Position numbers and translations under genes: made by a program. Of a stretch of DNA of 64,000 nt, positions 15,655-27,966 are shown one piece after another. This DNA comes from Lachnospiraceae bacterium. GTDB lineage: Bacteria > Bacillota > Clostridia > Lachnospirales > Lachnospiraceae. The DNA is taken from positions 1-64,000 of the forward strand of contig JAGAQG010000051.1 in the NCBI GenBank assembly GCA_017622875.1, written 5' to 3'. Under the pieces are notes generated by a model. That model was not told the origin of the DNA. It ran no database searches and saw only the letters and a program-made list of their open reading frames with translations. Within the stretch, counting starts at the first letter, position 1. Each line of letters opens with the position of its first letter.

Positions 15655-16491
15655 CTATTTTACTTTTAAAATACGGTTTTCAGTTATCTCAATTTTGCCT
15701 TCTTTATAGAGTTTTCCTACTGCACGTTTGAATGCATTTTTACTCATTTTGAATTCTCTCTGGATGATTTCCGGGGATACTTTATCATTAAATGGAAGAA
15801 CTCCTTCGAATTCGTCGATGACCTGCATGACGTACTGCGCATCTTCGTCCATCTGTAAATGTGCTTTCTGTCGAATGCTTAAATCCAGCTTGCCATCTGC
15901 TTTCACTGCAGTAACTCGTGCTTCTACCATGTCACCAATTTCATATTCTCCGTGAAATTCCTTTGCAGGAATCAGGGCAGAATATTGATTATCTACTGCT
16001 ACAAATGCTCCAAAATTCTTGCTGATCTCATAAATAACACCTTTTACAGTATCTTCTTTTTTATAAGGTGAATCTTTTTTCAAATATTCGTATACGTTCA
16101 TGGTCGCACAAAGACGGCTGCTCTTATCAATATACATTGCAGCCAGAACCTCTTCTCCCGTGCGTACCTTTCTTGTCTGCTGTTTAAATGGCAGGAATAA
16201 ATCCTTTTCCAGACCACAGTCTAAGAATGCACCGATCTTTCCTACTTCTTTTACTGTCAGCACTGCCAGCTCGCCTAACGTAATCTTCGGCACTGCTGTG
16301 GTAGCAATGAGACGGTCTTTGGAATCTCTATAGATAAATACTTCGATTTTACTTCCATTTTCTATTCCTTCCGGTACCTGTTTCTTTGGAAGGAGCACTT
16401 TATCTGTACTTCCCGCTTCTTCTGCAAGATAGACTCCGAATTCTACCTTCTTTACAACTTCCAGTGTCTGTTTCTTTCCTAATTCGATCAT
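15655..16491 (-). CDS. S1 RNA-binding protein of the CvfB/YitL family
   Basis: A 278-residue protein with three tandem S1-type OB folds (about 1-62, 65-130 and 138-205; the third has the canonical GVIYEISKNFGAFVAVD strand pattern). A C-terminal winged helix (about 212-278, with VSPEIIQREFKMSKNAFKRA) completes it, the domain order of CvfB. CvfB proteins bind RNA and affect virulence or regulatory gene expression in Staphylococcus; the role here is unknown. I chose 16491 because GAGG lies nine bases upstream and the conserved MIELG opening begins there. It follows the thioesterase gene on the same strand. Confidence 0.87.
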   Translation of the reverse strand: MIELGKKQTLEVVKKVEFGVYLAEEAGSTDKVLLPKKQVPEGIENGSKIEVFIYRDSKDRLIATTAVPKITLGELAVLTVKEVGKIGAFLDCGLEKDLFLPFKQQTRKVRTGEEVLAAMYIDKSSRLCATMNVYEYLKKDSPYKKEDTVKGVIYEISKNFGAFVAVDNQYSALIPAKEFHGEYEIGDMVEARVTAVKADGKLDLSIRQKAHLQMDEDAQYVMQVIDEFEGVLPFNDKVSPEIIQREFKMSKNAFKRAVGKLYKEGKIEITENRILKVK

Positions 16492-16531
16492 GTTTTTCGT
16501 CCTCTCTTCATATTGCACTTATCGTTTTTTA

Positions 16532-17242
16532 CTATTTACGTGCCAAAAATTCTACTACAGTAAACGCATTGTCCGCTTCGTCATTCAGGCTGACAATGAC
16601 TTTTTTATCTTCATAATGTACCTGCGGACAGATCTTATCACCTAACAAGGCAGATTTTTTATATTCCGCTCTCATCTGTGCGATTTCGAAATCCTTTGGC
16701 AAATACAGACCGGCCATCTTTACATACTGCCCGTTGTTTACATGATGATTTGTATCCAGATGATGAATTTCTACCGAAAATGCAGGCTCGCTCACCATTC
16801 CCTCCGGCAGTGCAATCTTTCTGTCTGCATATTCCATATCATATTTTGGTTCTAATGTATAGAGTTTTATCACTTCATCATCTACTCTGACCGGACGGCC
16901 TGTTTCTGAATTTAAATAGGTCCAGAGGCTGTTTGCATAGGCAAGAACCCGTCCATCCTCTCCATACATGATGAAATTACGACTGCCTAAAAACCTGTTG
17001 TAATCATATGGCCAGGTTCCTGTTGTAATCTTTTCTCCAATCTTTGGATATTCATTGACAACGATCTGCCAGGATGAAAGCACCCACACACGATGCAGGG
17101 CTTCTACCGCTTCCATACCGTTTCCAAGGTCCTCCGACTGAAAGGTACTGCAGTCCTGAAAATAATTGACGATGCTGTCTAATGTCAGGCGCTTGTCCTC
17201 GCCCACTTCACTGAATCTGACTCTTCCGTCCCATTTGTACAT
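16532..17242 (-). CDS. Acyl-ACP thioesterase
   Basis: A 236-residue double hot-dog enzyme of the FatA/FatB-like family (acyl-ACP_TE), which releases free fatty acids from acyl carrier protein. The first hot-dog includes LDSIVNYFQDCSTFQSEDLG (about 21-40) and the second carries the catalytic segment HHLDTNHHVNNGQY near 160-175, with the conserved Asn and His. The W-P-Y-D-Y-N-R-F-L-G-S-R motif near 77-88 is also typical. It is cytoplasmic and without a targeting peptide, as in anaerobic Firmicutes. The gene is first in a two-gene run with the CvfB-like gene. Confidence 0.92.
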   Translation of the reverse strand: MYKWDGRVRFSEVGEDKRLTLDSIVNYFQDCSTFQSEDLGNGMEAVEALHRVWVLSSWQIVVNEYPKIGEKITTGTWPYDYNRFLGSRNFIMYGEDGRVLAYANSLWTYLNSETGRPVRVDDEVIKLYTLEPKYDMEYADRKIALPEGMVSEPAFSVEIHHLDTNHHVNNGQYVKMAGLYLPKDFEIAQMRAEYKKSALLGDKICPQVHYEDKKVIVSLNDEADNAFTVVEFLARK

Positions 17243-17395
17243 GTATCTTCCTCCTGTTCATACGGTAATAGTATACATGAAATCCCATAGATTTCCTACT
17301 AAAATCTTTCTAAAATCAGGAAATCTCCTTTGACTATCTGCGTAACATTTTTTATACTGAATTTAAGGGTATTTATTTTTTCGGGGGAACACAAA

Positions 17396-18256
17396 ATGAA
17401 TTTTGATTTTAAAAAAGACATAAAGAGAATTGTTGTCATTTGTATTGCTTCGGTGGTCATGGCTCTAAACATCAAGACCTTTGTCCGTACCGGCGGGCTG
17501 TATCCGGGCGGTGCTACGGGGCTTACGATTCTGATCCAGAGCATTGCATCGCAGTTTTTTCATATTGAACTTCCATATACGGTCATCAATCTTTTGCTGA
17601 ATGCATTTCCCGTTTACATTGGATTTAAATTTATCGGCAAAAAATTTACTTTATTTTCTTTACTGACGATCGTATTGACCAGTACCTTAACGGACATCCT
17701 GCCAGGTTATCCAATTACCTATGATACACTTTTGATCAGTATTTTTGGCGGTATCATCAATGGTGCAGCCATCAGCCTTGTACTTTCTGTGGATGCTACC
17801 ACCGGCGGAACAGATTTTATCGGAATCTTCCTTTCTCAAAAAAAAGGCGTAGATTCCTGGAATATGGTTCTCGGTATCAATGCATGCATCATCGGTATCG
17901 CAGGTCTATTATTTGGATGGGACAAGGCACTGTACTCTATTATTTATCAGTATGCTTCTACCCAGATGCTGCATATGCTTTATCAGAAATTCCAGAAAAC
18001 TACGCTTTTTATCGTTACCAATAAGCCGCACCTTGTTTGTCAGATGATCAAGGAGATCACCCATCACGGTGCGACCATTATGGAAGGGGAAGGCTCTTAC
18101 GAACACAAGGAACGAAGTGTTGTATACTCCGTCGTTTCCCGAGGGGAGACTGATAAAATCGTACATACGATCCGCCAGATCGATAAAAAAGCGTTTATTA
18201 ATACGATCAAGACCGATCAGGTGGCTGGACGATTTTATCAGGCACCGACGGATTAA
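17396..18256 (+). CDS. YitT-family membrane protein
   Basis: A 286-residue integral membrane protein with about five transmembrane helices in the first 180 residues (YitT/DUF161 domain, with the GGLYPGGATG loop near 33-42 and TTGGTDFIGIF near 138). A soluble C-terminal DUF2179 domain of about 75 residues follows. YitT proteins are widespread in Firmicutes and often multicopy; transport activity is suspected but the substrate is unknown. The start at 17396 follows GGGGGA by seven bases. The gene points away from the thioesterase operon and converges with the SIS-domain gene, ending two bases before its stop. Confidence 0.9.
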   Translation: MNFDFKKDIKRIVVICIASVVMALNIKTFVRTGGLYPGGATGLTILIQSIASQFFHIELPYTVINLLLNAFPVYIGFKFIGKKFTLFSLLTIVLTSTLTDILPGYPITYDTLLISIFGGIINGAAISLVLSVDATTGGTDFIGIFLSQKKGVDSWNMVLGINACIIGIAGLLFGWDKALYSIIYQYASTQMLHMLYQKFQKTTLFIVTNKPHLVCQMIKEITHHGATIMEGEGSYEHKERSVVYSVVSRGETDKIVHTIRQIDKKAFINTIKTDQVAGRFYQAPTD

Positions 18257-18258
18257 TT

Positions 18259-18864
18259 TTAGTCTTGTTTTATACTGGCACCCAGGGTTCCACCCGGGTG
18301 CCATTTTACGTACTGCTTTGGTGTCAGACCTTTTTCATTCTGGAGCAGAATACTTAAGCACTGTAAGATGATGATTTCTGCCAGAATAGAAGCTCGAGGA
18401 GGTTTATTCAGAAAATCCCCCTCCTGCGCTACTCCTGCTGTCAAAACCACATCTCCCTGCTTCGCCAGCCACGAATGAGCGTTTCCTGTCACAGAAATGA
18501 TTTTTGCACCATTTCCTTTCAGAGTCTCCACGGTCGCTTTTAATTCTGTCGTTTCTCCACTGTTACTGATAGAGATCACCACATCCCCGGAAGCTACCTG
18601 CCCGGAGCTTCCATGGACCGCTTCCGTACCATGAAGCTCATAGCATCTCGTACCTGTAGAAGACAAAAGGGACGCGATATATCCCGCTACGTGACCGGGC
18701 TTTCCAATCCCGGTCACATGGACCCGGTTTCCCTCGCTTTCCGCTTCCAGAATGAGCATTTTTGCTTTTTCCAATGCTCCATAATCAATCTTTTCAATGA
18801 ATCTGCTTATTTCTTCTGTTTCAATACGCAGAAATTCCTTCACCTGCTGCTCTGTATTTCCCAT
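18259..18864 (-). CDS. SIS-domain phosphosugar isomerase (KpsF/GutQ-like)
   Basis: A 201-residue sugar isomerase domain protein. The SIS fold spans about 35-165, with GIGKPGHVA near 52-60 and the sugar-phosphate loop SNSGETTE near 98-105, plus HPGGTLG close to the C-terminus, all hallmarks of the KpsF/GutQ arabinose-5-phosphate isomerase group. The CBS pair of full-length KpsF is absent. It is the last gene of the PTS operon, ten bases after the aldolase. It probably interconverts an aldose and a ketose phosphate in the pathway for the transported sugar; the substrate is not known. AAGGAG precedes the start. Confidence 0.88.
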   Translation of the reverse strand: MGNTEQQVKEFLRIETEEISRFIEKIDYGALEKAKMLILEAESEGNRVHVTGIGKPGHVAGYIASLLSSTGTRCYELHGTEAVHGSSGQVASGDVVISISNSGETTELKATVETLKGNGAKIISVTGNAHSWLAKQGDVVLTAGVAQEGDFLNKPPRASILAEIIILQCLSILLQNEKGLTPKQYVKWHPGGTLGASIKQD

Positions 18865-18873
18865 AGGACTCCT

Positions 18874-19626
18874 TTACAGCTCTTCATATTCTTTCACTGC
18901 ATTTTTAAGACCAGCCCTCAAAATACCCAAATCGTCTGCACCGATTAAAATAGACAGATCATCCTTAAAATATCTGAGCATATTCATCTTACCGATGATT
19001 CCCCAGGGTTTCTGATATTTTTTACAGGCATCTGATACTCTCTGTATCATCTCTAGTTCCTTTTCATCCATCAAATCATCCGGATTGCCCATAGAATTTG
19101 CCAGATCACACGGTCCTACAATGATTGCATCGATTCCATCCACACTTAGGATTTCCTCAATGTTTTCTATGCCTCTCACCGTTTCGATCTGAACAATGGC
19201 GATAGTCCGCTCATTCATTTCCACCATATTTGCAGAATGAGCTCCACTGGAATCATAATGGGTATTTGCTCCACTGGAATAGCTTCTGCGTCCGATTGGC
19301 GGATATTTGCTCCATCCGGCCAGCTTTTCTGCCTCTTCTTTTGTCTCGATCATGGGAACCATCACTCCTGTGGCACCATAATCTAGAATTCTGGATACTT
19401 CCCTTTTGGAAAGTTCAGGCACACGAACGATCGTCGGAAAATCATTGCAATTTCCTAATACCATCAGATCATGAAGTCTTTCTTCATCTAAAATTCCATG
19501 CTCTCCGTCGTAAAAGATAAAATCCATCCCACATTGCTGTGTCAAGATCACCATTGCAGGAAATGCCATGGTCTTTACAAAAACGCCTTTGACTTTTCCG
19601 TTTTTCATCAAATCTTTCAGATTCAT
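18874..19626 (-). CDS. HpcH/HpaI-family class II aldolase
   Basis: A 250-residue TIM-barrel aldolase of the HpcH/HpaI family, which cleaves 2-keto-3-deoxy acids such as 2-dehydro-3-deoxyglucarate using a divalent metal. Key features are FYDGEHGILDEERL (about 38-51), the PMIET segment, the metal-binding IVQIETVRGIENI near 145-157, and VGPCDLANSMG near 170-180. The neighbours are a complete PTS transporter upstream and a SIS isomerase downstream, so it most likely cleaves a phosphorylated keto-deoxy sugar acid derived from the PTS substrate. Exact substrate is inference. Confidence 0.9.
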   Translation of the reverse strand: MNLKDLMKNGKVKGVFVKTMAFPAMVILTQQCGMDFIFYDGEHGILDEERLHDLMVLGNCNDFPTIVRVPELSKREVSRILDYGATGVMVPMIETKEEAEKLAGWSKYPPIGRRSYSSGANTHYDSSGAHSANMVEMNERTIAIVQIETVRGIENIEEILSVDGIDAIIVGPCDLANSMGNPDDLMDEKELEMIQRVSDACKKYQKPWGIIGKMNMLRYFKDDLSILIGADDLGILRAGLKNAVKEYEEL

Positions 19627-19640
19627 AAGCTGCCTTTCCG

Positions 19641-20927
19641 TTACGCAAAAATTCCCAAAATCCAGTTCAAAATACTTCCGATAATGTTATAGTCCACATT
19701 CGGGAAGGAAGCACCTGCAATGCCAAGCTGGGCAAATGCAGGGTAGAGAATCAGCGGCAGACCAGTCAGTGCCATACCAACAATAAAGGAAGCAAGAAGT
19801 GCCCCTTTCCAACCGCCATGCACATTTCCAAAGATACCGCAGGTACCACCCGAGAAGAAGCAGATACCAGCAGCCGGAATCATGATGACAGAACTGTCAA
19901 AAACAACCATCAGGCCCATGGCAGCCAGACCGCCAAGGAATGCACCTACAAACCCAATGAGTACCGCTGTTGGTGCAAACGGAAAAAGTGCCGGACAGTC
20001 AACTGCCGGTTTGGAATTCGGAATGTATTTTTCAGAAATCGCAACAAATGCCGCGGTAATTTCTGCAATGAACTGACGAACACCGTAAATTAATACGCTC
20101 ATACCTGCCGCAAACTGAAGTCCCTGAAGGAATGGGTATAAGAACCAGATATCCGTTCCTGCTTTTTCAAGAACAAAATCCATATGTCCGTTCACAACAC
20201 ATGCAATGACTGCAATATAGAATAAAACGATCATAAAAAGTGCCACAGAGAAAATAAAATCTCTGAACAGGTCAAAGAATTTCGGCATTTTTACAGAACT
20301 GGAATCCTTCTGTTCTTTTCCTTTGCCGAACATTCCGACCAGTTTTCCGATATATCCGGACAATGCATAGCCGATACAGTTAAAGTGTCCGATGGACAGA
20401 TTATCCGCACCGATAATCTTCTTTACGAAAGGCTGACAGATTGTCGGAAGGGCTGCACCACAGAAGCCCAAAATGATACCGCCCAAAATAACCGTCAGGG
20501 CTGGCGGCATATCATTGGCAATAAATACAAGTGCGATGACACATGCAAAGTATAAGAAATGCTGTCCTGTCAGGAAAATAGATTTGAACCTCGTGAATTT
20601 TGCAAACAGCAGGTTCATCACAAATCCCAGCAGCATTACCATTGCAACCTCTGTACCATAAGTATTCAGCGCCAGGCCGGTGGCAACCTCTACCTGAGTC
20701 GTTACACCGGTAATTCCAAAGGCTGTATTAAATAATTCCGTAAATGTCGTTACCACAGAAGACATTGCATTGGAACCGATATTAAATACCATAAATCCAA
20801 TGACTGTTTTTAATGTTCCGCTGATGACGTCATTGGCGGATTTTTTCTGAAGCAGCAAACCGATCATAGCAATGAGGCCCATGATCAATGCAGTATTTCT
20901 CGCCTGCACTAAAATAGCGTCTAACAT
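19641..20927 (-). CDS. PTS EIIC, ascorbate (SgaT/UlaA) family
   Basis: A 428-residue polytopic membrane permease with about eleven hydrophobic segments. The opening ILVQARNTALIMGLIAMIGL and the conserved TGQHFLYFACV (about 117-127) and GHFNCIGYALSG (near 177) place it in the SgaT/UlaA group of IIC proteins. These transport L-ascorbate or other sugar acids with phosphorylation. It lies in a IIA-IIB-IIC order on the minus strand, with AGGAGA before the start. Because the operon lacks UlaD/E/F enzymes and has an HpcH-type aldolase instead, the substrate may not be ascorbate. Confidence 0.9.
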   Translation of the reverse strand: MLDAILVQARNTALIMGLIAMIGLLLQKKSANDVISGTLKTVIGFMVFNIGSNAMSSVVTTFTELFNTAFGITGVTTQVEVATGLALNTYGTEVAMVMLLGFVMNLLFAKFTRFKSIFLTGQHFLYFACVIALVFIANDMPPALTVILGGIILGFCGAALPTICQPFVKKIIGADNLSIGHFNCIGYALSGYIGKLVGMFGKGKEQKDSSSVKMPKFFDLFRDFIFSVALFMIVLFYIAVIACVVNGHMDFVLEKAGTDIWFLYPFLQGLQFAAGMSVLIYGVRQFIAEITAAFVAISEKYIPNSKPAVDCPALFPFAPTAVLIGFVGAFLGGLAAMGLMVVFDSSVIMIPAAGICFFSGGTCGIFGNVHGGWKGALLASFIVGMALTGLPLILYPAFAQLGIAGASFPNVDYNIIGSILNWILGIFA

Positions 20928-20940
20928 TCAAATCTCTCCT

Positions 20941-21222
20941 CTACGATTCTCTAGCTGCTAAAAATTCTTCCATTTTTGCTTTCATTTCTTTTTTATCCAG
21001 AATATTGCGAATTCCCAATGCATAAGGAACCTTGTTTTTCAATTCGTCTGACAGGTCATCCATCGTGATGATCAGATCTCCGGTAAAACCGGCCAGAGAG
21101 TCCAGATTCCCATGCTCTGTCACGATCGGAAAATTATTTTCGCTGATCACCTGATCAGCCTTAATCTTAAGGAGCATACTGCTGCCCATGCCCGCACGAC
21201 AGCACACCAATGCTTTGTACAT
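20941..21222 (-). CDS. PTS EIIB, lactose/ascorbate type
   Basis: A 93-residue phosphocarrier. The active-site loop L-V-C-C-R-A-G-M-G-S-S begins at residue 5; the phosphorylated cysteine should be C8, the one placed in the C-x-x-G-x-G-S-S pattern. The fold is the small four-stranded P-loop of the IIB SgaB group. It passes phosphate from EIIA to the sugar acid bound by EIIC. AAGGAGG precedes the start; spacing to the neighbours is 11-13 bases, consistent with one operon. Confidence 0.9.
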   Translation of the reverse strand: MYKALVCCRAGMGSSMLLKIKADQVISENNFPIVTEHGNLDSLAGFTGDLIITMDDLSDELKNKVPYALGIRNILDKKEMKAKMEEFLAARES

Positions 21223-21233
21223 ATCTCGCCTCC

Positions 21234-21674
21234 TTACCTGTTGATATAATCCATTACCTCTTTTGCTGACTTTGCTTTATCCAGCATCCTAAAAAACTGC
21301 TCATCCTCCAGTAGACCGGCCAGTTCAGCCAATGCCTCCAGGTGCTTTTCGTTATCGACAGCACTTAGAGGGAATAAGTATTTTACGGGATCGTTTGATG
21401 CATTGCCAAAACAGACGGGAGTTCTTAAGGTCACAATTCCAATGGCAGATTCCAGGGCTCCGGCCTCCGGTCTTGCGTGAGGAAGCGCCACATGCTCTGT
21501 CAGCACAATGTAAGGCCCCAGTTCTTTTACGCCCACAACGATATCTTCCAGATACGACTGCTTTACTTTCCCTTCATCGATCAGGGGCTGGGACGCTTTA
21601 CGAACCGCATCTTCCCAGTCTTCTGCTTCGATATTTAACTGCACCAGCTTTTCGTTTGTCAGATTTTTTAACAT
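21234..21674 (-). CDS. PTS EIIA, fructose/mannitol-ascorbate type
   Basis: A 146-residue PTS_EIIA type 2 protein. The phosphoacceptor histidine lies in EHVALPHARPE at H66, with the supporting ELGPYIVLTE strand before it. It receives phosphate from HPr and hands it to EIIB. I place the start at 21674, after AAGGTGAAGG; a longer in-frame extension reads through AT-rich non-conserved sequence toward the terminator hairpin at 21779-21805. It is first in the five-gene operon. No PRD regulator or repressor is encoded next to it, unlike most ula operons. Confidence 0.9.
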   Translation of the reverse strand: MLKNLTNEKLVQLNIEAEDWEDAVRKASQPLIDEGKVKQSYLEDIVVGVKELGPYIVLTEHVALPHARPEAGALESAIGIVTLRTPVCFGNASNDPVKYLFPLSAVDNEKHLEALAELAGLLEDEQFFRMLDKAKSAKEVMDYINR

Positions 21675-21771
21675 ATCCTTCACCTTCTTTTGGAATATTT
21701 TATTCCGGAGAAAGCATGACATATTCCCTGAGCAGCTTTTCCAACAGAAAATGAAAATCGATATTTTTAGA

Positions 21772-21806
21772 CACAAAAAACTCAGTAGATATTCTCTACT
21801 GAGTTC
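21772..21806 (-). terminator. Terminator hairpin, third copy of the tRNA-Gln terminator
   Basis: Perfect 11-bp arms AACTCAGTAGA/TCTACTGAGTT (21779-21789, 21795-21805) with a T tract on the minus strand. The stem and the 3' flank (ACACAAAAAA on plus) are shared with the hairpins at 22830 and 26255. The TAG stop of the small gene at 21796 falls inside the right arm, so the gene reads into the terminator. Confidence 0.85.
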
Positions 21807-22020
21807 CCAATTCATTCTCTATCAAATCCTCTGCAAGGTACTTTGCATCCATATTCTCGATACCGCATTTTCCTTCTGAAATCTGTTCAGCCAATCGGCT
21901 CGAATAATAAATATCAAAAGCCTTGCGCAATTCGATGCCTTTTACCTCGGCAATATATTTAATAATATCATTTTCCAAATTCTGTTTATACACTAGCGCG
22001 AGCTGTTCTCTATCTACCAT
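21796..22020 (-). CDS. Small protein of the DUF3990/DUF3791 module, 3' end fused to the terminator hairpin
   Basis: A 74-residue acidic helical protein (DIIKYIAEVKGIELRKAFDI then LAEQISEGKCGIENM). Small partners of this type sit beside DUF3990 genes in Clostridia, some annotated DUF3791; I recall this from family knowledge. Its start codon shares one base with the DUF3990 stop (TAATG), implying coupled synthesis as for an antidote or partner. The last codons ACT CAG TAG come from the terminator stem, so the C-terminus may have been created by a recombination that joined the gene to the hairpin. Function unknown; antitoxin-like role is inference. Confidence 0.7.
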   Translation of the reverse strand: MVDREQLALVYKQNLENDIIKYIAEVKGIELRKAFDIYYSSRLAEQISEGKCGIENMDAKYLAEDLIENELGTQ

Positions 22021-22502
22021 TATGGCTCCACCTCATACGACTTTTGAAAAGTCAGCACCTCTTCTAACACTTTTTGATTTACAATGCAAATCTGATCATT
22101 CATTTTGTAGTATCTTAATTCTTCCAGTACCTTCTTTTTATCCCAAAGTCCACGGAAATACATATCAACGGTCTTAAACACATCATCGTTAGCGACATTA
22201 CCTACACTAATATCATAGTCCTGATTAATAGTTTCGCCTTTTCTGCCTGCACAAACAAAATCTAACCACTGTTCATTCTCTTTCTCAAAGGATAGCACTT
22301 TAAATCCATTCCAGTTATCCTTCAATTCGTAAACATTTACAATACCTTGCTTTTCTTGACGCATTCCTTTACGAAGCGCCCACTTTTTTGCTTGACTTTC
22401 AAAGGTAGTTAAATAAAAGCCTTTTCCAAAATCAAGATATTTTTTAGAAAATTTCACATCAGGCTTTTCAATTATTTCTGTTGTTCCATGATAAACAATC
22501 AT
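22020..22502 (-). CDS. DUF3990 family protein, ADP-ribosyltransferase-like
   Basis: A 160-residue protein with the N-terminal signature V-Y-H-G-T-T at 3-8 and D-F-G-K-G-F-Y-L-T-T at 24-33, followed by a helix with QAKKWA. This histidine/tyrosine-glycine layout is that of the DUF3990 family, which is related to the ART (ADP-ribosyltransferase) fold and is often paired with DUF3791. A late acidic position that could act as the catalytic Glu is not obvious to me. Start overlaps the upstream DUF3791 stop by four bases and its stop overlaps the downstream small gene. A toxin-like role is inference. Base composition is AT-rich relative to the flanking PTS genes. Confidence 0.82.
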   Translation of the reverse strand: MIVYHGTTEIIEKPDVKFSKKYLDFGKGFYLTTFESQAKKWALRKGMRQEKQGIVNVYELKDNWNGFKVLSFEKENEQWLDFVCAGRKGETINQDYDISVGNVANDDVFKTVDMYFRGLWDKKKVLEELRYYKMNDQICIVNQKVLEEVLTFQKSYEVEP

Positions 22503-22732
22503 ATATTAACCCCTTTTTCACGGACAAATTCAGTAATATCCTCGACGAGATATTCCTTTCCCTGAGTATGCAACATATCATATCCAGCAATAATATAATT
22601 ATCTAAAATACCTGTTGAATTTAATATTTTATATACAGTAGCAGGTGTCATCTTCCATTTTTCAGCCAATGCATACAATATAAAAATAGAAAAGCTTAGC
22701 TCTCTTTCTTTACACAAATCTGCCATCTCCAT
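22499..22732 (-). CDS. DUF3791 family small protein
   Basis: A 77-residue protein with the DUF3791 hallmarks: an N-terminal helix FSIFILYALAEKW, an HTH-like segment TPATVYKILNSTGILDNYI, and the conserved Y-D-M-L-H-T-Q-G-K-E-Y-L-V-E-D-I box. The family is found next to DUF3990 in many Firmicutes and is probably its partner. The ATG at 22732 is preferred over an upstream TTG and a second ATG at 22726; none has a strong ribosome site. It is the first gene of the three-gene module and is coupled to DUF3990 by ATGA. Confidence 0.82.
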   Translation of the reverse strand: MEMADLCKERELSFSIFILYALAEKWKMTPATVYKILNSTGILDNYIIAGYDMLHTQGKEYLVEDITEFVREKGVNI

Positions 22733-22823
22733 TTTAAACAAAAACTAATATATATTATTATATATTATACATTTTTGTCTCTCATAAAACAACCAAAAGA
22801 ACTTTTATCATTGATTTCCAGAC

Positions 22824-22905
22824 ACAAAAAACTCAGCAGAATCAATCTACTGAGTTCACTTAGCAGGGCTACAAGGATTCGAACCTTGAAATGACGGAGT
22901 CAGAG
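22824..22905 (-). repeat. Direct-repeat copy of the tRNA-Gln 3' half plus terminator (putative attR)
   Basis: This 82-base block matches 26249-26330 at all but four positions. It contains, on the minus strand, the tRNA-Gln sequence from the anticodon loop (CTCTGA) through the T arm to the discriminator, then the terminator hairpin AACTCAGCAGA/TCTACTGAGTT (22830-22840, 22846-22856). Identity stops exactly in the anticodon loop, a usual crossover site of tyrosine recombinases. One acceptor-stem base is changed and the 5' half is missing, so no tRNA is made from it. Confidence 0.88.
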
Positions 22906-23013
22906 ACAGTATGTTTTGGCTCCGCAAATGCCTGTAAATGCTGGGGTTGCAGGCATCTCAAAAATTCTTTTCACTATCTTTTGTGCAATGTTTACAAAAA
23001 TGTATTTTTAAAT

Positions 23014-23826
23014 TTATTTTCTGCTTTCAATAATTCTATCACTTCCTATAAAATGTGTACGAATCGGATATTCTTGACCCTCATACATTATAACATCATT
23101 GGAAATATATGGGTTATACTCGTCATTAAGATATAAATATAAAGAAAACGACTCTTTCTTTATTTCAAAATAGTCTGTGCAAAAAGTAATATAACTAAGT
23201 TTTATATTTTGTTCGTTGCAGATCTTTGATATTTCAACCACTGTTTCTCTATCAATTTCAAGGATATTCCCAAAAATAACTTCTTCTATACAATTTTGAG
23301 GAAAATAGAAAAACGGTTCTGAAGTCTTCTCAATTATACGGTACTCGTATTCGTATTTCCAATTCTTACTTTTATAAAGCAAATTTTTTTTAATGATAGA
23401 TTCAAATTCTTTATCTGTAACAATGTCTCTTTCATCAATATACTTAAATCTTTTAGATGTGTATTTCACTTCTCTTGCATTTAAAAACACATCATTATAT
23501 TTAAATGCAATACAAATACCTTTATAATTATTTGCATAATGAGCCCACATCTGCATATTGTTCCAAGTTCGTGACAATGACAAAATACGGTATTCTTCTA
23601 GCAATTCATTAAATTCTGGTTGCAAATATCCATTCTCTATAAAATAGGTGCTTCCCAACGTGTGAAAATGAATTGGTTGAATAACGCCTTCTAACGGATC
23701 GTTCAATCCTGACCGAGTAGGAAAATATAAGCAATGATTCTTCAAAATGTCAAACACGTATTCTTTATTTACTAATGAACGATACTTATATAAATATGGT
23801 ATATGCTTATTTAAAACATCTGTCAT
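23014..23826 (-). CDS. DUF2971 family protein
   Basis: A 270-residue soluble protein with the DUF2971 signature: YKYRSL near 13-18, YFPTRSGLNDPLEG near 34-47, the LSRTWNNMQMWAHYANNYKGICIAF block near 83-107, and KSKNWKYEYEYRII near 152-165. The family is of unknown biochemical function, is frequent in phage-defence and toxin contexts, and contains conserved charged residues suggestive of an enzyme. GAGGG lies five bases before the start. It is the last gene of the islet, 19 bases after the ATPase gene, and is clearly AT-rich. A defence role is inference from context. Confidence 0.85.
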   Translation of the reverse strand: MTDVLNKHIPYLYKYRSLVNKEYVFDILKNHCLYFPTRSGLNDPLEGVIQPIHFHTLGSTYFIENGYLQPEFNELLEEYRILSLSRTWNNMQMWAHYANNYKGICIAFKYNDVFLNAREVKYTSKRFKYIDERDIVTDKEFESIIKKNLLYKSKNWKYEYEYRIIEKTSEPFFYFPQNCIEEVIFGNILEIDRETVVEISKICNEQNIKLSYITFCTDYFEIKKESFSLYLYLNDEYNPYISNDVIMYEGQEYPIRTHFIGSDRIIESRK

Positions 23827-23845
23827 TTTGTCCCTCTATATTTTT

Positions 23846-25204
23846 TCATGCTTTGAAACTTATTCTATCTGCCAAACAAAGTGGCATAGTAAAAATATTA
23901 TCTCCCGCAATTCCACCCTTTGTATCACCTTTCAACAAATACAAATAATCAAGCTTCTTATTATCCAAAAGTTTTCTCGCAGTCTTTGCCGCAGCATCTG
24001 TGCTTTTCACTTCGATACCATAGTTTTTATAATCCAAAAGACTTCTTGCATAAAAGTCAAGTTCTCCTTTTGTTTTTTCATCAGATGCAAACCAAGGTGC
24101 AATACCTGCAATCTCTGCATTTTCAACTCGTCTTCTCAAAGTCAGATACACAAAATTCTCAGCAAGCAGCCCTTTGATTGTTTCATAAGGTGCGCCTGTT
24201 CTGCTCAAGAAATGATAAGCAACACCCATATCAAGGAAATAGTATCTGCTATTATCCTTAATCTGCTTATAATCACAATCTACTGCTTTTGAAGCATAAC
24301 CGATAATATGCGATTCCTGAAGCCAGCTAATTGCATGATTAAGCATTTTCTTAGTCATACGACCACTATCTTCTTGATAAGCAATCTTACTAAGCTCTGC
24401 TGTCAGATCTCTAACTCCCTGCTTTTCTTGTATCATTAAAAGCGCAATGGCATTAAAGAGTTTCTGAAACATATTCATATCAATAATGTCCGTAAAATAG
24501 CGTTTGGATTCATTTGTAAAAATCTCAATCAATCTTCGAACCATTTCATAACATTTATTCAAATCTTTTTCTTCCGCATAGGAAACAACTACTGCCGGAT
24601 AGCCGCCAATTTTTTGATAAACTTCGTAATAGTCCATCAGCTTTTTGTAATCATCACTATCACTTCCGCCAAAGAGGTCTATTTTCTCATACAGTTCTCT
24701 TTCTCCGAAAACATCAAGGAATTCATCAAATGTCAATGTTTCCATTGTAAGATGATCCATGTCTCCTGCCGGAAGAAAGAATTCTCTCTCAACAGTTCTT
24801 CCAAGATAACTTCCTGTTACAATTACATAAGCCTTAAACTCTCTCGCCAGCGGACGAATCTGGTTGTACACCTCTGCTGATTCCTGAATCTCATCAATAA
24901 TTACCACTGTATTTTCATCATCTGTAAATGTCTGATTGTACAGCTTGAATGCTTCATGGAGAGGACTTTCAGGTCTTGGATTGCCAGGTTCCCATTCACT
25001 TGCTATTTCGTAGCAACGCAAAAAATCTTTTCCTGATTTTTCAGCCATGTTAATATAAATCATATTCCGAAAATTTTCTTTTCCAAATTTCTTCAGAATA
25101 TATGTTTTTCCAACCTGTCTTGCACCCTGAAGCTCCAGTACATGTCCTGTATTCTGTTTTTTCCATTCAATCAGTTTGTCGTATATGTTTCTTCTAAGTT
25201 CCAT
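23846..25204 (-). CDS. AAA-family ATPase with C-terminal DUF4143 domain
   Basis: A 452-residue protein. The N-terminal AAA_14 ATPase has a Walker A GARQVGKT at 27-34 and Walker B VVIIDEIQES beginning near 100, followed by a sensor region VIVTGSYLG. The C-terminal third carries a DUF4143 domain with the nuclease-like strand KTKGELDFYARSLLDYKNYGIEVKS, which has the E...D...ExK spacing of PD-(D/E)xK enzymes. I chose the ATG giving MELRRNIYDKL (GGGGAAG eight bases upstream); ATGs at 25219 and 25255 are alternatives. The family is common and of unclear role; some members occur with mobile elements. In the islet it lies between GIY-YIG and DUF2971. Confidence 0.85.
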   Translation of the reverse strand: MELRRNIYDKLIEWKKQNTGHVLELQGARQVGKTYILKKFGKENFRNMIYINMAEKSGKDFLRCYEIASEWEPGNPRPESPLHEAFKLYNQTFTDDENTVVIIDEIQESAEVYNQIRPLAREFKAYVIVTGSYLGRTVEREFFLPAGDMDHLTMETLTFDEFLDVFGERELYEKIDLFGGSDSDDYKKLMDYYEVYQKIGGYPAVVVSYAEEKDLNKCYEMVRRLIEIFTNESKRYFTDIIDMNMFQKLFNAIALLMIQEKQGVRDLTAELSKIAYQEDSGRMTKKMLNHAISWLQESHIIGYASKAVDCDYKQIKDNSRYYFLDMGVAYHFLSRTGAPYETIKGLLAENFVYLTLRRRVENAEIAGIAPWFASDEKTKGELDFYARSLLDYKNYGIEVKSTDAAAKTARKLLDNKKLDYLYLLKGDTKGGIAGDNIFTMPLCLADRISFKA

Positions 25205-25335
25205 ACCAAACTTCCCCATTCTTTCTTTATTCAGGACTTGTTTGTATTCTATCATAATTTTTTTAATATATCTATGGATTCCAAATTTTCCGAATACAAA
25301 AAACGGACGGATAGAACAAACTACCCTTCCGTTCT

Positions 25336-26187
25336 CTAATTATCGTTATATCCATTTTTTATTGTATCAAAACATCTTTTCCAATATTGTTCTCGCTCAA
25401 CGATTTTTTGAGGATCATATGATAAACCGAAATATTCCAATAATGTGAATGTGAAATTTTTTTCGAAATATTCAGATCCTTTTTGACTGTATAATGAAAT
25501 TAACTTTTTGTTTCCACCATGTTTTGAATCAAGATAATTTCCCCAGCGTTGAGCAACACCTTCCGTTCCGGTTGCCGAGCCAATATAGAGTTTTCCTGTA
25601 TGGGTGTCTGTAAGACAATATACACCAGTTACTTTTTTTAATGCGTCATGATATGTAGGCAATATTTTTCCGTTAAAAATATCTGACAGTCTATGATATG
25701 GTAAATGAACCTTATCATAGCCTTCAAATTTTTCACCGTTATATAGGCAAGGAAGGATTTCTTTTACTACTGCCTGTTCAAGATATCTGTTAAGATTAAA
25801 CGTATACCTCGAAAAAGTATTACCTTTTTTACACTTTATGATTACTCTCCCAAAAAACGGAGTGAATTTTTTCAAAACCTTCGTAATAGCCCATGTATTA
25901 GCTGGCACATCCAAAACTTCAGCAGCTGAAATAAATAGCCATTCATCATCTGTAATACGAGCAAAACTAAAAACCCATTGTCCAGAAAAAAAGTTATGTT
26001 GGTTTCCATACCATCCCCAATAAGAACATTCAGCACATGTTCCCGCCATTTTATCAACTTCATTACATTTGAGCCAGCGGTCAAGAAATGGTTCGCCGCT
26101 GCCGCCTACGTGCATATTAAATTCAATTTTACTATTTTTAATCTCTTCTGTAGTTAGATTTAAAATATTGTTCAATAATAAATCCAT
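25336..26187 (-). CDS. GIY-YIG nuclease with an unassigned N-terminal domain
   Basis: A 283-residue protein. The C-terminal GIY-YIG domain has GVY at 188-190 and YIG at 201-203, the catalytic Arg R214 in AQRWGNY, Glu at 264 or 266 in VEREQYW, and the closing NGYN at 278-281; all expected catalytic positions are present. The first ~180 residues form a domain I cannot name, with a CAEC pair at 51-54 that could bind metal and a beta-rich stretch. Such fusions can be restriction-like or homing nucleases. It is first in the islet, about 100 bases from the tRNA. The start has no strong ribosome site. Confidence 0.82.
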   Translation of the reverse strand: MDLLLNNILNLTTEEIKNSKIEFNMHVGGSGEPFLDRWLKCNEVDKMAGTCAECSYWGWYGNQHNFFSGQWVFSFARITDDEWLFISAAEVLDVPANTWAITKVLKKFTPFFGRVIIKCKKGNTFSRYTFNLNRYLEQAVVKEILPCLYNGEKFEGYDKVHLPYHRLSDIFNGKILPTYHDALKKVTGVYCLTDTHTGKLYIGSATGTEGVAQRWGNYLDSKHGGNKKLISLYSQKGSEYFEKNFTFTLLEYFGLSYDPQKIVEREQYWKRCFDTIKNGYNDN

Positions 26188-26248
26188 AACTAATTGTCCA
26201 ATCTTTTTATTATGTAACCGATATTTTATCGTTCATTATTTTTTAGGT

Positions 26249-26330
26249 ACAAAAAACTCAGTAGAATTAATCTACTGAGTTCATTTAGCAGCGCTACAAG
26301 GATTCGAACCTTGAAATGACGGAGTCAGAG
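26249..26330 (-). repeat. Direct-repeat copy overlapping the intact tRNA-Gln (putative attL)
   Basis: 82 bases that match 22824-22905 with four mismatches. It comprises the 3' half of the functional tRNA-Gln gene from the anticodon loop onward and the terminator hairpin (arms 26255-26265 and 26271-26281). Integration has restored an intact tRNA on this side. Confidence 0.88.
26250..26281 (-). terminator. tRNA-Gln terminator
   Basis: Perfect 11-bp stem AACTCAGTAGA/TCTACTGAGTT with an ATTAA loop, followed on the minus strand by six T residues, eight bases after the tRNA 3' end. Confidence 0.93.
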
Positions 26331-26360
26331 TCCGTTGCCTTACCGTTTGGCGATAGCGCT
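26289..26360 (-). tRNA. tRNA-Gln (anticodon CTG)
   Basis: A 72-base cloverleaf on the minus strand. The acceptor arms AGCGCTA/TAGCGCT pair fully; the D arm is GCC/GGC; the anticodon arm ACGGA/TCCGT encloses CTCTGAC, so positions 34-36 read CTG; the T arm is CAAGG/CCTTG with TTCGAAT. The discriminator is G. CCA is not encoded. It decodes CAG. The gene is the integration target of the adjacent islet. Confidence 0.96.
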
Positions 26361-26454
26361 ATATTTTGTTGTTTTGTATCGACCGTTCGTCTCAACAATG
26401 GCTAGTATATATCATCATCTCAAAAAATGCAAGCATTTTTTTGAATTTTTTTTA

Positions 26455-26496
26455 ATTTTTTTCGGGACCCAAATTTTATCCTTTTGAGTCCCGAAA
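26455..26496 (-). terminator. Terminator after pncB
   Basis: Arms TTCGGGAC (26461-26468) and GTCCCGAA (26488-26495) form an 8-bp stem; on the minus strand it is followed by a long T tract. It starts eleven bases after the pncB stop. Confidence 0.88.
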
Positions 26497-26505
26497 TTCT
26501 AACCC

Positions 26506-27966
26506 TTATTCTTCGTCTAAATCACTTAATTCTTCTAAAAGATCTGCCTTCATCTTATAAAGCTTGTCAGATAAATCCACATAAACTTCATGAGGATTTA
26601 CAAGACGTCTGGATTCTTCCCAAACAGTCTCCTGTTCTTTCTTACAGTATTCTCTCATTTCCATAACGCTTGGAGATTCATATACACATTCTCCATCTCT
26701 GAATACTTCCACAAGCAGTTCTCTCATTTCATAAGATCCTGCTTTATATCTTGTCTTCTTCCATGTTTCGATTGGATCGAAAATACGAAGGTCTTCATTG
26801 ATGTCAAATGTTTCGTCTGCAAGACAAATCAGGTCAGCATTTAACATGCCTGTTTCTTTATCATAGATACGATAAACAGTTTTATTACCCGGATTTGTCA
26901 CCTTTGCTGTATTTTCAGAAAGCTTGATCTTTGGAATAAATGTTCCATCTTCTTTCTTAATTGCTGCAAGTTTATATACACCGCCGAATGCCGGCTGGTC
27001 CTTGGATGTGATCAGGTTTGTACCTACACCCCAGGATCTGATTTCAGCCCCCTGTGCTTTTAAGCTGTCAATCAGATGTTCGTCCAGGTCGCTGGAAGCA
27101 GAAATCACTGCATCCGGGAATCCAGCCTTATCTAACATTTTTCTAGCTCTCTTTGAAAGATATGCAAGGTCACCGCTGTCCAGGCGAATTCCATATTTCG
27201 TTAATGGGATTCCTGCTTCACGCATTTCTTTGAATACACGGATTGCATTTGGTACACCGGATTTCAATGTATCGTAGGTGTCTACAAGCAGGGTACATGC
27301 ATTTGGATAAAGCTCTGCATATTTCTTAAATGCAGTATATTCATCCGGGAAGCTCATGATCCAGCTGTGTGCGTGGGTTCCAAGTACCGGAACATCGAAA
27401 AGCTGTCCTGCCAGTACGTTAGAAGTACCGATACATCCGCCAATCATGGCTGCTCTGGCACCATAAACACCTGCATCCGGTCCCTGCGCACGGCGAAGAC
27501 CAAATTCCATAACACCGTCACCCTTTGCCGCATAGACAACGCGCGCTGCTTTTGTAGCAATCAAACTCTGGTGGTTTACAATATTTAAAATCGCTGTTTC
27601 AATCAACTGCGCCTGCATAATTGGTGCAATGACTTTAATCAAAGGTTCTCTCGGGAACACAACCGTTCCTTCAGGAATCGCATACACACTTCCTGTGAAT
27701 TTAAAATCAGCTAAATATTCCAGAAAGTCTTCATCGAAGATCTTTAATCCTCTCAAATATTCAATATCTTCAGAGCTAAAGTGCAGATTTTTCAGGTAAT
27801 CGATTACCTGCTCTAAGCCCGCTGCAATCGCAAAGCCGTTACCGCTTGGGTTGGTTCTGTAAAATGCATCGAATACAACAGTATCATTGTTCTTGTTTTT
27901 AAAGTATCCCTGCATCATGGTCAATTGGTAGAGATCAGTTAACAGGGTCAGATTCATGGTACTCAT
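26506..27966 (-). CDS. pncB: Nicotinate phosphoribosyltransferase
   Basis: A 486-residue enzyme of NAD salvage, which joins nicotinate to PRPP with ATP use. The N-terminal LLTDLYQLTMMQGYF segment (about 8-22), the central GVYGARAAMIGGCIGTSNVLAG block with the following GTHAHSWI (catalytic histidine region), and GIRLDSGDLAYLS then SSDLDE match the long PncB family of Firmicutes. The C-terminal 100 residues form the cysteine-containing extension typical of type 2/3 enzymes. AAGGAG lies seven bases before the start. It is monocistronic, with its own terminator, next to tRNA-Gln. Confidence 0.96.
   Translation of the reverse strand: MSTMNLTLLTDLYQLTMMQGYFKNKNNDTVVFDAFYRTNPSGNGFAIAAGLEQVIDYLKNLHFSSEDIEYLRGLKIFDEDFLEYLADFKFTGSVYAIPEGTVVFPREPLIKVIAPIMQAQLIETAILNIVNHQSLIATKAARVVYAAKGDGVMEFGLRRAQGPDAGVYGARAAMIGGCIGTSNVLAGQLFDVPVLGTHAHSWIMSFPDEYTAFKKYAELYPNACTLLVDTYDTLKSGVPNAIRVFKEMREAGIPLTKYGIRLDSGDLAYLSKRARKMLDKAGFPDAVISASSDLDEHLIDSLKAQGAEIRSWGVGTNLITSKDQPAFGGVYKLAAIKKEDGTFIPKIKLSENTAKVTNPGNKTVYRIYDKETGMLNADLICLADETFDINEDLRIFDPIETWKKTRYKAGSYEMRELLVEVFRDGECVYESPSVMEMREYCKKEQETVWEESRRLVNPHEVYVDLSDKLYKMKADLLEELSDLDEE

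Follow-up and report, generated by a model that had tools for sequence, protein, structure and literature searches.

The 64,000-nt stretch analysed here, from contig JAGAQG010000051.1 of a Lachnospiraceae bacterium (hereafter the window), contains a single tRNA gene, a tRNA-Gln(CTG) (ARAGORN, whole window). The 3.4 kb adjoining this gene are probably an islet flanked by attachment (att) repeats and devoid of an integrase, which resembles the remnant of a cis-mobilizable element (CIME), is most likely fixed and is retained for its cargo. The islet would be a piece of a mobile element that is probably frozen by now, and sequence comparison supports its entry by a tyrosine-integrase-type event at the anticodon stem-loop of tRNA-Gln. 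Three features mark its edges:

26288..26360, reverse strand: intact tRNA-Gln(CTG), the target gene (ARAGORN; acceptor stem AGCGCTA/TAGCGCT).
26249..26330, reverse strand: attL-side repeat, from the anticodon loop to the terminator (3' half of the intact tRNA plus terminator; repeat search, alignment).
22824..22905, reverse strand: attR-side repeat, the displaced tRNA-Gln 3' half plus terminator, 82 nt, 4 mismatches, acceptor strand TAGCCCT (repeat search, own-genome BLAST, alignment).

The displaced copy sits downstream of the tRNA gene, towards lower coordinates, and the repeat search reported both copies as a direct repeat of 103 nt (22808-22910 and 26233-26335, 88% identical, spacing 3425). 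Read in the direction of the tRNA, the two copies agree from the first base of the 7-nt anticodon loop (CTCTGAC) onwards. Upstream (5') of this base the copies agree at just 5/12 and 11/30 bases, and the first 82 nt of the repeat contain four mismatches, at offsets 38, 46, 62 and 68. ARAGORN, the repeat search and the alignment confirmed the preliminary description of this DNA, which had reported an intact tRNA-Gln, an 82-nt copy with four mismatches 3.4 kb away and an identity edge in the anticodon loop. A chance origin of the repeat is negligible, because the displaced half has an E value of 1.7e-28 in its own genome and because, when 124 tRNA-Gln genes were scanned by local alignment, the window copy scored 146 against a ceiling of 33 for matches other than second intact tRNAs, displaced halves and a third, terminator-only copy in the window that is described below.

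Three genes lie between the repeats:

25336..26187, reverse strand: UzuA-like protein with a C-terminal GIY-YIG nuclease domain, 283 aa (Pfam PF01541 2.2e-6; PADLOC UzuA 3.2e-42).
23846..25255, reverse strand: AAA_14/DUF4143 ATPase, 469 aa, PDC-S01 defence candidate (Pfam; PADLOC 1.9e-60).
23014..23826, reverse strand: DUF2971 protein, 270 aa, PDC-S31 defence candidate (Pfam; PADLOC 3.2e-42).

All three matched PADLOC models, in whose names we take PDC to denote candidate systems. The UzuA model (PDLC03973, E 3.2e-42) covers residues 66-283 of 283, i.e. the Uzume component UzuA is present. The DUF2971 open reading frame (ORF) starts 19 nt past the ATPase stop, and these two genes perhaps form one operon. 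The islet interior has a GC content of 0.331 compared with 0.414 for the window outside 21764-26480; Pfam and GC content therefore agree with the earlier claim of AT-rich DNA encoding a GIY-YIG, a DUF4143 ATPase and a DUF2971 protein. Judged by these family matches, the three genes resemble anti-phage defence genes and may function as such. Relatives of the GIY-YIG protein occurred in 7/298 other genomes of the family, the best matches being about 40% identical, and no tRNA gene was found at the three best loci, each read over 12-16 kb. Among the matches listed, homologues in phage records were 28-37% identical, and among solved structures just two GIY-YIG chains matched, both of them short (E 3e-4 and 8e-4). 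No packaging, replication, capsid or satellite Pfam family, as would mark a prophage or satellite, was present among the three ORFs. Moreover, the absence of a recombinase asserted in the preliminary description held up, both with Pfam on the three ORFs and with an integrase hidden Markov model (HMM) run on ORFs of 60 aa or more. The islet does not encode its own integrase, as an integrative and mobilizable element (IME) or an integrase-bearing genomic island does.

The site was compared with those of other genera, the window's genus being represented by its one genome. Genomes and loci are given by working handles (G and L numbers, respectively); counts refer to loci, not genomes, and a few genomes entered twice. 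The locus sample is non-random, since the window gene at 26506-27966, which we take to encode nicotinate phosphoribosyltransferase, served as the query that yielded 80 loci, the others having been obtained through tRNA-Gln matches. Outside the window's genus, the typical neighbours downstream of tRNA-Gln(CTG) are orthologues, encoded on its strand, of the window's thioesterase and CvfB-like genes. Among 199 loci examined, 131 carried tRNA-Gln(CTG), and 91 of these had at least one member of the thioesterase/CvfB pair downstream on the fetched stretch. The pair started at most 420 bp from tRNA-Gln in 62 of the 91 linked loci; more DNA intervened in the other 29, the window included. The proposed check for empty sites thus turned up uninterrupted junctions in other genera. 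Besides the window's, seven displaced halves were found at this site, all starting within the same anticodon stem-loop: three in elements with an integrase, three in islets without one and one in an element cut by contig ends. Four of them (G656, G651, G657 and G658) came from a follow-up in the genus of G120, prompted by the G120 match, in which 31 genomes were searched and 20 stretches from 18 genomes were read:

G087 element, 16.7 kb: integrase (PF00589 1.3e-23); GmrSD-type cargo.
G656 element, 10.0 kb: integrase (PF00589 9.8e-17) and MobA-type relaxase.
G651 element, 20.8 kb: integrase of 414 aa; displaced half followed by thioesterase and CvfB.
G190 islet, 2.85 kb: no integrase (4 ORFs scanned); DUF4143 ATPase, HATPase_c_4/Fic-like fragment, DUF4160, DUF2442.
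G120 islet, 3.2 kb: no integrase (3 ORFs scanned); AbiEii 1.4e-127, AbiEi 1.5e-84, third ORF without a match.
G657 islet, 9.5 kb: no integrase (7/8 ORFs of at least 70 aa scanned); ABC transporter/FtsX, acyltransferase, split DcuC.
G658 element, cut by contig ends: displaced half.

The integrase HMM, applied to ORFs of 60 aa or more, likewise found no integrase in the window islet, G190, G120 or G657. The integrases of G651 and G656 are 36% identical to each other. The cargo is defence- or toxin-antitoxin-like in G120 and partly so in G190; that of G657 is not, which indicates that the site is not reserved for defence. Empty, integrase-bearing and integrase-less states at the same boundary demonstrate that the tRNA-Gln site is a real integrase target. 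The other cargoes (G190, G120 and G657) and the integrase-bearing elements on the same core (G087, G656 and G651), all in other genera, together with the uninterrupted junctions, also support the earlier proposal that a tyrosine integrase used the tRNA anticodon loop here; most of the checks suggested with that proposal had the expected outcome. Alternatively, no integrase was ever involved, and the repeat would stem from homologous or illegitimate recombination with foreign DNA ending in a tRNA-Gln half. Such an event would suit a short repeat and an islet without a mobility gene; random breakpoints, however, would scatter, whereas unbroken identity sets in 0-5 nt ahead of the anticodon loop in 8/8 elements (0 nt in the window; 1 in G120, G656 and G657; 2 in G190; 3 in G087 and G658; 5 in G651), i.e. 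within a 6-base span of the stem-loop, three of the eight carrying integrases. This makes recombination without an integrase very improbable.

Further loci were recorded around this site. An ORF adjoining the displaced half of G658 (L304 9329-9793) looks by eye like the HATPase_c_4-type fragment of the G190 islet. In G193 an integrase of the G651/G656 clade (G193:C43 8137-9342, L323; 1.4e-131) lies about 9.5 kb from tRNA-Gln on one contig, and no tRNA half was found around it within the flanks examined. In G467 two small genes, nucleotidyltransferase/HEPN-like by eye, lie between tRNA-Gln and a tRNA remnant (L242 3335-4260); this remnant includes part of the 5' half and was excluded from the count of displaced halves. 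The halves in L126-L132, L135-L137, L199 and L088 proved to be second intact tRNA genes, and those of G640 and G662, at contig ends, were left out of the count. Two congeners of G190 (G633 and G634) have ordinary-looking genes, named by eye, over 4-4.5 kb behind tRNA-Gln, and these neighbours differ from those of G190; a third (G637) gave a single strong match.

Under the reading preferred here, a circular element with specificity for the anticodon stem-loop of tRNA-Gln(CTG) would have been recombined with the tRNA gene by its tyrosine integrase. A half brought in by the element would have made the tRNA whole again, and the original 3' half, terminator included, would have been displaced 3.4 kb downstream. 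The integrase was presumably lost from the islet rather than supplied in trans, leaving the three defence-like genes, and most likely the islet has by now become fixed and is kept for its cargo, its present immobility being suggested by several signs: drift in attR, the lack of paired inner repeats, a C·C mismatch at the joined site, and the lack of another half in the own genome except the terminator-only copy. The mismatch, at the third acceptor pair, appeared in the tRNA-Gln formed by scripted joining of the window's flanks. The same procedure left no recognisable tRNA in G120, while ARAGORN still found a tRNA for G190, G657 and the three integrase-bearing elements; the full drawings of the joined-site tRNA were inspected for the window, G190, G657 and G087. 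The acceptor change C3:G70 was dropped as proof of an imported half, since a few relatives have C3:G70 too and the displaced copy may equally well have drifted. Two tRNA-Gln(TTG) genes lie elsewhere in the own genome; tRNA-Gln(TTG) can read codons by wobble, and the CTG gene may therefore not be strictly essential.

The inner ends of the islet were compared with the genome and with the other elements; the attR-side end is the following feature:

22906..23013, reverse strand: inner attR end of the islet (BLAST against the own genome, end comparison).

No second copy of this end was found in the own genome, other matches being short with E 0.05 or worse. No common exact repeat of at least 11 nt was found between the two inner ends in the window, G190 or G120; G657 has just an A-rich 12-mer in common, and G087 a 16-mer and a 15-mer (TGTCCACGAT units). 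Between elements, the window ends had only 12-mers in common with those of G120 and G087, within the shuffled maximum of 13. The absence of inner repeats is a weak sign of fixation in such comparisons, because the integrase-bearing G656 is also without clear ones (11-mer only) and because the 13-mer common to the ends of G651, which recurs on one side, stays within the maximum for shuffled window ends (13). The preliminary description had left the choice between a decayed remnant and a minimal cargo element moved by an integrase in trans. Its remnant half is the one favoured by the absent inner repeats, weakly, and by the imperfect acceptor stem; its trans-moved half was not borne out.

Several observations weigh against the reading as a fixed remnant, in addition to the poor inner repeats of G656 and G651. 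No sequence link was found between the islet inner ends and any integrase-bearing element. The repeats of G190, without a mismatch over 75 nt, and of G657, without one in the first 56, appear young and would restore a paired tRNA, yet no integrase was found in either islet; such clean repeats indicate that integrase-less delivery may happen. Among the other elements, the displaced half of G120 is split by about 75 nt of inserted DNA, the edge in G190 is less sharp, 9/12 bases upstream of the core also matching, and the halves of G656, G651, G657 and G658 were read via a core-motif search, with which independent BLAST starts (query 39-43) agree. Seen by eye, the insert in G120 (L165 4300-4380) is hairpin-like.

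An alternative is a live hitch-hiker: the three genes and two att cores would form a mobile unit without an integrase, which elements sharing this tRNA-Gln core excise and insert in trans by means of their integrases. The four integrase-less islets (window, G190, G120 and G657) come from four genomes of three genera, two have undamaged repeats, and the family does contain integrase-bearing elements that use the core. A different picture comes from the own genome (87.7% complete). Its matches to the tRNA-Gln half fall at three places, all on the window's contig, and BLAST revealed no further half in it beyond the terminator-only copy. Ten PF00589 matches were obtained, nine over the cut-off, and none lies on the contig with the tRNA-Gln half, although any of them could still act. 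The clade of the G651/G656 integrases, present in 4/397 genomes, has no member in the own genome at E 1e-30, and the own-genome integrase nearest to that of G087 adjoins tRNA-Leu(TAA), not tRNA-Gln. Moreover, excision of the window islet would leave a mismatched tRNA, the inner ends of the window islet, G190 and G120 lack common repeats of the kind seen in G087, and the cargo varies among the islets. A live hitch-hiker is thus unlikely at this locus. A small stretch of own-genome contig C14 (L240 16075-18240) holds an integrase beside tRNA-Leu(TAA) and, judged by eye, what looks like the 3' half of a tRNA some 2 kb further on; it may be a nearly integrase-only element.

The search for integrases around the sites depended on the model used. 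Screening with the own-genome integrases alone was insensitive, missing those of G656 and G651. The wider HMM used on the islets above, built including several of the found proteins and run over 3610 ORFs, matched only at L021, L054, L235, L240, L241, L300 and L301/L302; a truncated or very divergent integrase could escape it. Phages, viral contigs and plasmids were also searched. Three phage-record matches to the tRNA half, considered as attP, were rejected as intact tRNA-Gln genes, and the islet inner end gave chance-level matches only in phage records. Viral contigs gave 0 matches for an exact 35-mer and 27-mer of the tRNA-Gln half and for a 25-mer of the islet end, and no relative of the G651/G656 integrase alignment. 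Plasmid searches returned 11 records with weak matches only (best E 1e-3). A TGCCTG/CAGGCA motif lies just inside the displaced half (22911-22960); no second copy of this stretch was found in the own genome, its matches in phages were at chance level and one 25-mer of it was absent from viral contigs.

Compared with known systems, the islet appears closest to CIMEs (PMC5704250) and to those Dehalococcoides islands at ssrA that have no integrase (PMC3146451). As CIMEs are portrayed in the excerpt of PMC5704250, the islet resembles them in its att flanks (the 82-nt repeat, whose core also flanks G087, G656 and G651), in the lack of integration and transfer genes (Pfam on the three ORFs, integrase HMM), in its position at a tRNA 3' end and in a possible tandem with another islet. 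It differs from them in having no identified parent integrative and conjugative element or IME, no recognisable paired inner repeats, a size of only 3.4 kb and a cis-mobilisation that is putative. The excerpt of PMC3146451 describes 15 Dehalococcoides ssrA islands without an integration module, termed possible cis-mobilizable elements. There too an RNA-gene site is common to integrase-bearing and integrase-less islands with varied cargo, but the site is ssrA and the enzymes are serine recombinases, whereas here they are the tRNA-Gln anticodon stem-loop and tyrosine integrases, with defence-like cargo. At hotspot 37 of E. coli, 68.0% of cases have no detectable mobile element and many have integrase or recombinase genes, according to the part of PMC10121019 consulted, which acknowledges the movement of defence genes without a visible mobile element as a gap. 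Defence genes at a fixed site with an unclear mode of mobilisation are common to both, but att-type repeats show entry here and no integrase is left. Like the islet, the CALIN cassette arrays outlined in the excerpt of PMC11389934 carry cargo without an integrase of their own and could depend on one in trans; they have attC sites and integron integrases, in contrast to a single islet with tRNA-derived repeats. Among the titles listed in literature searches, none dealt with tRNA-Gln islets that lack an integrase in Lachnospiraceae. At this tRNA the combination of att-type scars, uninterrupted junctions and integrase-bearing elements makes the route of entry plain, and the candidate integrases of G651 and G656 make mobilisation in trans directly testable. 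It is doubtful that Lachnospiraceae-like gut bacteria maintain integrase-less islets at tRNA-Gln as a lasting class of hitch-hikers, each a compact unit, often with defence genes, bounded only by the core and swapped in trans by diverse resident tRNA-Gln integrases; if they do, genes would swap at this site without carrying mobility genes.

The neighbouring DNA contains further features on the far side of the displaced half:

21764..21806, reverse strand: third, terminator-only copy, 81% and 86% identical to the other two (repeat search, own-genome BLAST, local-alignment score 57).
22499..22741, reverse strand: DUF3791 protein, PDC-M13A-like, possible second islet (B) (Pfam, PADLOC).
22020..22502, reverse strand: DUF3990 protein, PDC-M13B-like, possible second islet (B) (Pfam, PADLOC).
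21796..22020, reverse strand: 74-aa ORF without a Pfam match at E 0.01, its stop codon inside the third terminator copy (ORF list, Pfam).
17330..21815, no strand assigned: YitT, SIS, aldolase and phosphotransferase system (PTS) IIC/IIB/IIA genes, also missing from the usual tRNA-Gln/thioesterase junction of other genera (Pfam, locus comparison).
15655..17242, reverse strand: acyl-ACP thioesterase (16532-17242) and CvfB-like gene (15655-16518), the usual downstream neighbours of tRNA-Gln elsewhere (locus comparison).

Relative to the 62 short junctions of other genera, everything from 17243 up to the tRNA is extra DNA, which the preliminary description overlooked, as it did the terminator-only copy. 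The third copy and the DUF3791/DUF3990 genes may mark the end of an earlier islet (B) that has lost its att half. Compatible with a fixed remnant is the tentative view that 17243-26240 is a composite island, to which the PTS block, islet B and, last, the three-gene islet (A) were added by accretion at tRNA-Gln. The thioesterase lying close behind tRNA-Gln in other genera, the third copy of the terminator, placed between islet B and the PTS block, and the match of the AT-rich islet B (GC 0.329) to the PDC-M13A/B defence-candidate models are consistent with accretion. The third copy, however, is without a tRNA half and hence is no att repeat as it stands, own-genome BLAST returned no further copy beyond it, and the PTS and YitT genes are of ordinary GC. 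In the scan of 124 tRNA-Gln genes the third copy, with its score of 57, exceeded the ceiling of 33, and weak terminator-only similarities were seen at L176 and L243 (scores 33 and 31, respectively).

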